A stretch of DNA of 35,256 bases from Actinomycetes bacterium (lineage in GTDB: Bacteria; Actinomycetota; Acidimicrobiia; Acidimicrobiales; Poriferisodalaceae), in contig JAAETH010000525.1 in NCBI GenBank assembly GCA_024228575.1, forward strand, positions 1-35,256, read 5' to 3'. Each line of letters opens with the position of its first letter. The first letter of the stretch is position 1. The notes under the pieces are model-generated. The model saw nothing but the letters and a program-made list of their open reading frames with translations, was not told where the DNA came from and searched no databases. Below, one piece after another: positions 31,984 through 35,256 of the stretch. The translations under genes and the position numbers were made by a program.

Positions 31984-34887
31984 TCAGGAACGCGGAATCT
32001 CGCGTTCCTCGAAGGTCTCGATGATGTCTCCGGCCTGAAGGTCCTGGAAGTCCGAGAGGCCGATACCACACTCGTAGCCTGCCGCGACCTCGCGGGCGTC
32101 GTCCTTGAAACGTTTGAGCGACGAGACCGTACCCCTCCAGATGATGGTGCCTTCGCGAAGGAACCGGACCTTGGAGTTGCGGGTGATGACACCGTTGAGC
32201 ACGTAGCAGCCTGCGATGGAACCGATACGCGGGATCTTGAAGATCTCGCGGACCTCGGCATCTCCGGTGATGACTTCTTCGTACTCGGGCTCGAGAAGAC
32301 CGAGCACGGCGTTCTCGACGTCTTCGAGGAGCTTGTAGATGATCTCGTAGTGGCGGATCTCGACGCCGAGCTCGTCGGCCAGGCTGCGTCCCTTTCGGTC
32401 GGCCCTGACGTTGAAACCGAGGATGGTTGCGTTGGTGGCAGCCGCGAGCTGGACATCGTTTTCGGTGATGCCGCCTACGCCGCGCGACACAAACGCGAGC
32501 TTGACCTCGTCGCGTTCGAGCTTGCGAAGGCTCTCGGTGAGCGCCTCGAGAGATCCGTGAACGTCGGCCTTGACGATGAGATTGAGAGTTGCCGCCTCTC
32601 CTGCCTGGATCTGCTTGAAGATGTCCTCGAGCTTCGCGCCGCCGCTGGCAGCCGCCGCCGTATGGGCGAACGAAGCCTGACGTTGCCAGTGCTCGCGAGT
32701 GTCGGCGACCTTCGATGCGGTCTTCTCGTCCTGGGCCACAACAAAGGCCGCACCGGAGCTGGCCACGTCTGAGAGGCCGAGCACCTCGACCGGGGTCGAA
32801 GGACCGGCCTGTTTGACCTGTTCGCCGCGGTCGTTGAGCATCGCCCTGATACGACCCCAGGCCGCGCCCGCCACCAGGGGTTGGCCAACCGCGAGAATGC
32901 CGTGCTGAACGAGGATCGTCGACACCGGTCCGCGGCCCTTGTCGAGGTGAGACTCGAGAACGACGCCAGATGCGCGTCCCTCGGGGACAGCGGTGAGTTC
33001 CTCGACCTCGGCGACCAGCAACAGCTGATCGAGCAAGTCGTCGATGCCCAAATCCTCGAGCGCCGAAACTTCGACCGTGACGATATCGCCACCGTAGGAC
33101 TCCGGAATCAGATCGCGCTCTGCGAGCTGAGCGAGAACCCGGTTGACGTCTGCGGTTTCGCGATCGATCTTGTTGATCGCGACCACGATGGGTACTTCGG
33201 CAGCCTTGGCGTGGTCGATGGCCTCAATCGTCTGAGGCATGACGCCGTCGTCGGCAGCGACCACCAGAACCACGATGTCTGTCGCTTCGGCACCGCGCGC
33301 CCGCATGGCGGTGAACGCCGCGTGACCGGGAGTATCGATGAAGGCGAGCTTCTGACCGTTGTGGTCTACCTGGTAGGCACCGATGTGCTGGGTGATTCCA
33401 CCAGCCTCACCATCGACCACGTTCGCAGAACGGATGCGGTCGAGGAGCTTGGTCTTGCCGTGGTCGACGTGACCCATGACGGTGACGACCGGGGGTCGCG
33501 GAGCGAGGTCCTCTGGATCGATTTCGTCGTCGAGACCAAGAATCTGCTGGAGTTCTTGCTCCTGTTCGGCTCCGGGGTCGACGATGCGGATTGTACCGCC
33601 GACCTCTTCGGCGAACAGTTCCATCATCTCGTCTGTGAGCGACTGGGTGGCGGTCACCATCTCGCCCTGCTGCAACAAGAAGCGCACGACGTCGGCCGCA
33701 GAACGATTCAGACGCGGGGCCATCTCCTGAGCGGTCGATCCGCGCTCGACAACGACCTCAGAAGTCGGGACTGGAGCATCGGCTGGTGTGTAGGACGCGA
33801 GCTCCTGGGGCTGGAGGTCGTCCATGTTGCGACGACGGCGCTTGGAGCGACGCGGCCTGCGCGGAGGTCCGCCTGGACGCCCGCCACCCGGGCGACCGCC
33901 TCCACCCGGACGACCACCGGCTGGAGGAGGACCACCGGCTGGAGCTGCTCCGCCGCCGGGGCCACGACGAGGTCCGTCGAAGCCACCACCGGGACGGCCA
34001 CCACCACTTCGTCCGCCCGCGGGACCGCGACCGCCTGCACCGGGAGGCGGAGGAATCGGCTTTCCGCTCGAGGAGCGTGGAGGAGCTGGAGGTGGCGGTA
34101 TGGGCTTCCCTCCCGCCGACCTGGGACGAAGTGCAGCAGGTGGAGGGGGCGGAGGGGCAGCAGGGGCAGCGTCGGTGCTTGCCGCCGGCTGCGCCGGCGC
34201 CTGAGCGGGTGTGGGTGCGGGTGCGGGTGTGGGTGCAGGTGTGGGTGCAGGTGCAGGTGCGCTGGGGGGACCTGCCGGGGGTCGGGGCACCGCCGATGGT
34301 TTGGCCTCGGGTGCTGGGGTTGGAGCACGAACTCCCTCGTTGCCGCTCGAGGTGACCAGCGGCCTCGGCGGTGGCATCGGGATCTTGGGTGCCACCGGTG
34401 CCGCCTGAGCTGCTTCTGGTGCTGCAGGAGCCTCGGGCACCGCGGGAGCATCACTCTCGGCAACCGGAGGCACGTCGGCGGTGGCATTGCCATCGCCGAT
34501 CGATGGGTCGGTCTCCGGAGACGCCTCGGACGGCACTTCATCGGCCGTCGTCGGTGTGTCCTCGGCCGGAGTCGAAGCTGCCGCCTCGGGCGCAACGTCT
34601 CCGTCGACAGCCTTCGTCTTGGTCGGTGCCTTCTTGGCTGCAGCCTTCTTCTTCGCCGGAGCCTTCTTCTTGGCTGGAGCCTTCTTCTTGGTCGGTTCCT
34701 CGGGCTGTTCGTCGCGAATCAGGCCCTCGCGTTCGGCCTTGCGCCGCACACGGTCCGCCTGGGGTTCAACGATGCTCGACGAGTGACTCTTGGCTCCGAT
34801 TCCGAGCGCGTCGCACAAATCGAGGGTCTCCTTGTTGGTTAACCCAAGTTCCTTCGCAAGTGCGAAAACGCGAATATTCTTAGCCAC
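31984..34887 (-). CDS. infB: translation initiation factor IF-2
   Basis: The GTPase that brings initiator tRNA to the ribosome; 967 residues. An IF2_N module lies at 1-55 ([19 protein letters not shown]). A long low-complexity region (about 62-350) follows: Lys-Ala repeats (KKKAPAKKK), Ala/Pro repeats (PAPTPAPT), poly-Pro and Gly-Arg-rich RPGGG repeats. A second IF2_N part comes at about 378-436. The G domain has G1 GHVDHGKT (472-479), G3 DTPGH (518-522) and G4 NKID (572-575), and the conserved C-terminal domains follow. The GTG start at 34887 has AAGGA upstream at normal spacing. It is preceded by a 206-base structured gap. Confidence 0.97.
33830..34700 (-). repeat. low-complexity coding repeats in infB
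   Basis: Simple repeats in the IF-2 linker: Gly/Arg/Pro-rich units at about 33850-34060, alternating GTGGGTGC/GTGCGGGT-type blocks at about 34206-34262 (Ala-Pro-Thr repeats) and CTTCTTCTTGGC-type blocks at about 34625-34700 (Lys-Ala repeats). All are in frame and part of IF-2. Confidence 0.7.
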
Positions 34888-35093
34888 GCAGTTCCTTGTA
34901 CTCGATCATGGGGCGCGCCACGCGTTAGGCACGTTTCGCCCGGCTAACACCCTAACGGCTCGGCAGGCACACCGTCGCCATGTTGTTGCTGCGGTTTCGC
35001 TACACCCTTGGTGTTGCCTGCCTCACAGGTCTTGTGGTGGGGCTCCTCGGCAAAACCTCGTCGCCGAGTTGGGCGAATTCGCCCCGGTAGCCA
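34888..35093 (-). ncRNA. hairpin-rich gap upstream of infB, candidate structured leader RNA
   Basis: This gap between the acidic tail gene and infB has no credible ORF but several inverted repeats. In minus-strand RNA order they are the 14-base palindrome GGGCGAATTCGCCC (35084-35071), CTCGGC/GCCGAG around 11 bases (35068-35046), a 12-bp stem with one bulge GGCAGGCAACACC/GGTGTGCCTGCC around 36 bases (35022-34962), CGTTAGG/CCTAACG around 21 bases (34957-34923), and palindrome GGCGCGCC (34919-34912). The infB ribosome-binding site comes next. The position is where ylxR normally lies. A regulatory leader or stable RNA is possible; there is no match I can name. Confidence 0.4.
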
Positions 35094-35256
35094 CTACCCG
35101 GCGGAATCGTCTGACCCGTCGGAACCATCGTCGGATGCACCTTCGTCGTCGGCCTCAACTTCGGTCGCGGCCTCCTCGACGGCGTCGTCTGCACCATCGT
35201 CGTCGGCCTCAACTTCGGTCGCGGCCTCCTCGACGGCGTCGTCTGCACCATCGTCG
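35094..35256 (-). CDS. acidic tandem-repeat C-terminus of an upstream gene, probably nusA (partial)
   Basis: A frame without a start codon runs in from the right edge for 53 codons to a TAG at 35096-35094. It reads as 18-residue repeats DDDGADDAVEEAATEVEA, then an Asp/Ser/Gly-rich end (SDDGSDGSDDSAG). The acidic composition and the 5' position relative to infB suggest the C-terminal extension of NusA, whose gene usually precedes infB; acidic NusA tails are known. The identity is inferred from position only. The overlapping frame at 35000-35251, rich in Arg/Pro/Thr, is its shadow. Confidence 0.6.
   Translation of the reverse strand, partial: DDGADDAVEEAATEVEADDDGADDAVEEAATEVEADDEGASDDGSDGSDDSAG
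35137..35256. repeat. 54-bp tandem repeat, 2.2 copies, continuing past the window edge
   Basis: Copy 1 is 35137-35190, copy 2 is 35191-35244, and a third copy begins at 35245. Copies 1 and 2 differ by one base (CTTCG versus CATCG). The near-identity shows recent duplication or gene conversion. The unit is 18 codons, so copy-number change keeps the reading frame. Confidence 0.85.

Follow-up and report, generated by a model that had tools for sequence, protein, structure and literature searches.

A candidate promoter and 5′-terminal stem-loop for infB in the nusA-infB gap of an acidimicrobial genome

The rate of translation initiation is set by IF-2, which the textbook operon co-expresses with NusA, and some bacterial mRNAs, such as that of ompA, are stabilised by stem-loops at their 5′ terminus. 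For the infB leader of the bacteria considered here, or for a matching promoter motif in Acidimicrobiia, no description was found in the open-licence PMC literature. The closest described systems come from the same operon elsewhere. In E. coli, according to Brandi et al. 2019 (PMC6511841), the nusA-infB spacer carries an infB-only promoter, P4, whose transcript begins 13 bases ahead of the start codon and serves IF-2 alone. The rimP-leader of the rimP-nusA-infB operon is described (PMC2965389) as a non-coding attenuator located before rimP, with a terminator and its U-stretch.

The window analysed here, 35,256 nucleotides in all, is a whole contig (G000:C525) of a draft genome of 6.15 Mb in 960 contigs, and its relevant features are collected in Table 1. 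The infB product carries the IF2_N, GTP_EFTU and IF-2 domains (Pfam). The acidic tail encoded upstream is assigned to NusA because the gene in that place in another genome of the same genus, G004, is NusA. This tail is encoded in a 54-bp tandem repeat (35129-35256, 2.4 copies, 95% matches) within which the contig terminates, and which is the probable cause of the break in the assembly. Further short tandem repeats, of 6-36 bp, lie within infB at 34205-34261 and 34608-34695, where they encode the low-complexity N-terminal part of IF-2, rich in Ala/Pro and Lys/Ala. As the original prediction held, the 206 bases between the probable nusA tail and infB contain no plausible open reading frame and no ylxR. 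The YlxR profile (PF04296) found no match in the gap or in the window's genome (0/1), nor in any of 39 genomes searched from the window's family (0/39), and the idea that ylxR had been relocated within the genome is rejected on that count. The further statement that most relatives carry ylxR in this place does not agree with the searches: besides the complete lack at family level, the gene is present in only 111 of the 296 genomes sampled from the class. Since none of the family genomes searched carries it, the lack of ylxR is a family trait and not peculiar to this gap; the patchy distribution suggests repeated loss.

Table 1. Features of the nusA-infB region, in window coordinates
Feature	Position	Strand	Basis
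infB, translation initiation factor IF-2, 967 aa, GTG start at 34887	31984..34887	-	
nusA-infB intergenic gap, 206 nt, without ylxR	34888..35093	-	
Predicted infB 5′ leader, from about +1 up to, but not including, the start codon	34888..34943	-	
Shine-Dalgarno-like AAGGA before the GTG start	34893..34897	-	sequence
Two-part hairpin GGGCG-ACGTG / CGCGT-CGCCC, 10 bp	34911..34941	-	
-10-like hexamer TAGGGT, inside GTTAGGGTGT	34949..34954	-	
3′ arm of the 12-bp stem, upstream of the -10, not conserved in G004	34962..34973	-	
-35 candidate GCGACG, weak, 18 nt from the -10	34973..34978	-	sequence; inferred
5′ arm of the 12-bp stem, in an alignment gap in G004	35010..35022	-	
nusA acidic C-terminal tail (probable), truncated by the contig end, stop codon down to 35094	35094..35256	-	

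It is the infB-proximal part of the gap that is conserved. From TTAGGGT to the start of infB, 9 of 68 sites differ between the window and G004, and at the four-fold degenerate sites of infB the same two genomes differ at 155 of 269. These 68 nt contain the -10-like TAGGGT, the two-part hairpin and the ribosome-binding site. The 10-mer GTTAGGGTGT is common to the window, to G004 and to G003, a member of another genus of the family; upstream of it, G004 has GTGACG at the same spacing as the window's GCGACG, so that both candidate hexamers keep their positions. Within the predicted leader, 7 of 56 bases differ from G004, and all 7 lie outside the hairpin's 20 paired bases (hypergeometric P 0.036); restricted to the hairpin span, there are 4 differences, again none in paired bases (P 0.010). 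With only two sequences compared, and with pairs that come from a fold predicted for the window itself, this pattern is no more than suggestive of constraint on the hairpin, and the stem is identical in the two species, which leaves no covariation to count. Given its composition, the leader's folding energy is not unusual: z-scores of the window leader are not significant, at -0.51 for the first 45 nt and 0.20 for all of it, and the hairpin, being interrupted, scores only 5.5 as a perfect stem. An alternative is that the gap is the remnant of a decayed ylxR and its inverted repeats are GC-rich noise. The gene does precede infB in some relatives, among them G040, where its match lies on the same strand as that of infB and 187 nt upstream of it; it is missing throughout the family sample; and the end of the gap nearer to nusA is not conserved relative to G004. 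For that end, decay may still hold. As an account of the whole gap, we consider decay quite unlikely, given the strong constraint on the infB-proximal 68 nt and a genome in which the YlxR profile matches nothing.

The best reading, and a reasonably probable one, is that the gap is an intergenic region with infB's own promoter, followed by a short leader with a 5′-terminal stem-loop. RNA polymerase would start at about 34943, and the product would be an IF-2 message independent of the nusA transcript, as from E. coli P4. The stem-loop would cap the 5′ end of this mRNA and most likely slow its 5′-end-dependent decay, or else tune initiation, while the AAGGA site downstream would remain open. In its predicted extreme 5′ position, and in leaving an open ribosome-binding site downstream, it resembles stem-loops of the ompA type; promoter activity and hairpin function are both inferred. 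Against a promoter stand the weakness of the -35 candidate and the sigma-70 consensus scan of the window stretch, which gave no promoter match even with the two hexamers 18 nt apart. Like P4 (PMC6511841), the candidate infB promoter lies in the nusA-infB spacer; unlike P4, it has a different sequence, and the leader predicted here is 56 nt long with a 5′ hairpin. With the rimP-leader (PMC2965389), the element shares the operon and a likeness of signature, GGGc...gCCC in the one and GGGCG...CGCCC in the window hairpin. Three of the 30 leader hairpins listed from our wider survey (L043, L047 and L116) start with GGGC and end with GCCC; the other 27 lack this signature at their ends. Unlike the rimP-leader, which precedes rimP, the window element lies between nusA and infB, and here there is neither a terminator-like site nor an Rfam match at the gathering score.

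The original prediction was of a different structure, namely five inverted repeats, centred on a 12-bp stem with a single bulge, that would fold into a structured leader for IF-2 or yield a stable RNA. The stem exists, with both arms where they had been placed (Table 1). The repeat tool, which covered 34850-35120 and repeats of at least 8 nt, lists three inverted pairs and not five; one extends into infB and another, GGGCGAATTCGCCC, is a palindrome of 14 nt. If pairing is restricted to Watson-Crick pairs and no more than one bulge is allowed, 12 bp are uncommon, being reached in 3 of 200 dinucleotide shuffles and in 1 of 59 further pieces of the window, each of 206 nt (one of which overlaps the nusA end of the gap by 43 nt, not the stem). 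With G-U pairs allowed, 71 of the 200 shuffles and 35 of the 59 pieces reach 12 bp; the stem is thus rare only when G-U pairs are ignored. Nor does the gap as a whole fold unusually well (z -0.38, with 67 of 200 shuffles equally good). Loss of the stem in close relatives, which the original prediction had itself named as refuting it, was checked in one other genome of the genus, G004, whose nusA-infB gap is 167 nt; the 5′ arm is missing there and the 3′ arm is different, and the 12-bp stem is rejected as a conserved structure. The Rfam search returned no match at the gathering score; a more lenient threshold brings up two snoRNA matches (E values of 0.5 and 4.5), both in the nusA tail and both scoring far below their gathering score. 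A stable RNA, a tRNA and a terminator in the gap are likewise rejected; the window stretch has no terminator-like site. A structured leader or stable RNA built on these inverted repeats is therefore extremely improbable and, with the stem gone from G004, largely refuted already. What survives of the prediction is the notion of a leader: a constrained leader with a hairpin does lie directly before infB, but the conserved hairpin is a different one, at 34911-34941. The 12-bp stem is no part of the promoter and leader that we propose; with its 3′ arm on the upstream side of the probable -10, the stem could, if the promoter is real, form only in RNA that reads through from nusA.

Upstream regions of infB were gathered from the order. 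In the window's family, 30 of the 36 infB places found were fetched; in the order, 140 genomes had an infB match, and roughly half of them were covered. Of 109 upstream regions, 2 were dropped for N, and 89 of the remaining 107 were kept after removal of near-duplicates. A motif search, seeded with a consensus read by eye, yielded a 15-column motif with the consensus YGTGCGAGGATRGA. It reaches at least 10 bits in 60 of the 89 non-redundant regions, in none of their 89 reverse complements, and in 12 of 445 mononucleotide shuffles. Control leaders gave 0 of 30 for rpsP and 0 of 25 for recA; the 60 control loci fetched were the best 30 of 96 rpsP genomes and the best 30 of 98 recA genomes, with a usable start in 30/30 and 25/30, respectively. 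In a genome-wide search of 99 genomes the exact 14-mer YGTGCGAGGATRGA turned up 17 times, in 14 cases before infB, and the reversed control has 2 matches; in the three non-infB cases the 3-kb locus holds no infB. A bipartite pattern was matched 35 times in 148 genomes, with 22 of the sites before infB and 13 elsewhere (a recheck of 30 of the 35 loci found 19 with infB and 11 without). The sites elsewhere are as many as the 13 matches of the reversed control. The element is thus mainly infB's, with no sign of a regulon, and in whole genomes the motif is almost confined to infB.

A TTC block, often TTCGTGC, precedes the start of the motif by about 20 nt, with little variation in spacing. Several motif-less loci carry in the place of the motif a TANNNT hexamer, as read by eye: TAGGGT in the window, TAGCAT or TAGGCT elsewhere. 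The motif with its TTC block, and the TANNNT substitution, are arranged like an extended -10 promoter. The order-wide motif is, however, absent from the window: over the 190 nt that precede infB no match reaches 10 bits, the best being 1.4 bits in the window and 0.9 bits in G004. Within the window's family, TAGGGT is present in genera g1 and g3, and the order-wide motif in g2 and in loci of g5, g7, g8 and g9, the last four without a strong 5′ hairpin; the motif is absent from L003 (g4), from the seven g6 loci fetched and from both g10 loci. This uneven distribution within the family counts against a promoter coupled to a hairpin. The loci of g5, g7, g8 and g9 also have a second conserved element after nusA, seen at L005:1370-1412 and in 15 other loci (the two g10 loci were left out of this comparison). 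Its 7-bp outer stem, CCGGTAG/CTACCGG, is paired in 16 of 16 sequences around a variable inner part, and all changes in the 3′ arm are C to T opposite G, so that a G-U pair is kept. This element was not seen in the window.

Over the 95 nt that lead up to the ribosome-binding site of infB, 31 of 90 loci have perfect hairpins scoring at least 7, where 8.9 are expected from shuffles; three stretches further upstream gave 24, 20 and 22 of 89, with 15.1, 17.4 and 13.3 expected. On the same score the control leaders gave 7 of 30 for rpsP (3.0 expected) and 3 of 25 for recA (2.3 expected). Leaders were then defined by placing +1, by assumption, 6 nt after the -10 hexamer. This left 67 of the 89 regions with an assignable -10 and a leader of at least 25 nt (the -10 was set by hand in nine of them: L001, L002, L036, L045, L050, L051, L058, L075 and L123), and the 63 leaders of at least 40 nt, from predicted +1 to ribosome-binding site, were used for the hairpin tests. 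Sixteen of the 63 contain a hairpin scoring at least 7, where 2.8 are expected and none of 200 shuffle sets has as many; without family f54, the count is 12 of 57 (2.3 expected). Of 18 hairpins that score at least 6.5, 14 have their start 0-6 nt downstream of the assumed +1, a position for which the shuffles give a mean of 0.96 and a maximum of 4 in 200 sets. The hairpin sequences are mostly unrelated, so that what recurs is structure and place; in 45 of the 63 leaders no hairpin reaches 6.5. Folding z-scores for the first 45 nt show a weak excess (mean -0.70 for 67 leaders and -0.23 for a control stretch upstream, with 14 leaders and 9 control stretches below -1.5), and the test of hairpin position is the clearer one. 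Mutually unrelated hairpins were also seen in L003, L004 and L012 (g4, g3 and g2), with scores of 8.0, 8.5 and 9.0; all lie within 110-15 nt before infB, shortly before the ribosome-binding site.

The same motif could be read as RNA. On that reading, GUGCGAGGAUAGA is transcribed within the nusA-infB message as an order-wide cis-acting element of two hairpins, its 5′ half pairing with the upstream UUCGUGC block and a second hairpin following downstream, and regulates IF-2 through protein binding or attenuation. There is something to be said for this. The motif is nearly specific to infB, the second hairpin is enriched in leaders, and the conserved blocks UUCGUGC and GUGCGAG are partly complementary. 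Spacing and pairing of the blocks were assessed on the 71 of 98 motif-bearing rows kept after removal of near-duplicates, and pairs were counted by ungapped scripts because MAFFT alignments of the f54 leader were too gappy for the purpose. In a free register, the two blocks of one sequence match each other better than permuted blocks do, with permutations as good in 0 of 4000 trials for all 71 sequences, 0 of 4000 for the 52 outside f54, and 1 of 4000 for the 19 of f54. Such pairing above the permuted level is not predicted by a plain promoter and counts against one, although relatedness and local composition may explain the free-register excess. In a fixed register, the 19 f54 sequences are 70.0% paired, against 64.9% when permuted (z 3.75 at i+j=-10). 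By contrast, the 52 sequences outside f54 show no covariation at the pairing registers i+j of -13, -12 and -10 (z 0.01, 0.05 and -0.09); their highest value in 12 registers, z 2.78 at -17, does not correspond to a pairing of these blocks. Covariation of the dyad in a fixed register is thus found in f54 only. In that family (for example L041, L124 and L144) the dyad reaches up to 12 bp and lies just before the promoter-like motif and overlaps it.

Other observations also weigh against a transcribed element. Its near-fixed block spacing and the replacement of the motif by TANNNT resemble a promoter, the hairpin starts align with the predicted +1 (though a hairpin at a fixed distance from an RNA motif would fit as well), and the motif is absent from the window. 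We regard the two-hairpin RNA element as possible, though unlikely, and prefer a promoter followed by a 5′ stem-loop, because covariation is lacking outside f54 at the pairing registers and the free-register excess may come from relatedness or local composition. Were the RNA reading correct, the Acidimicrobiia of this order would control IF-2 synthesis through an infB-specific GUGCGAGGAUAGA and a downstream hairpin, a new class of leader, joined in one family by an upstream hairpin and kept in a diverged form in the window's genus; taken as a whole, this scenario is doubtful. If the promoter and leader that we favour are real, a conserved promoter for infB alone, with its 5′ hairpin, would place IF-2 under separate, conserved control. 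For an order of mostly uncultured actinobacteria, the loci gathered here would provide a short list at which the control of IF-2 can be tested.
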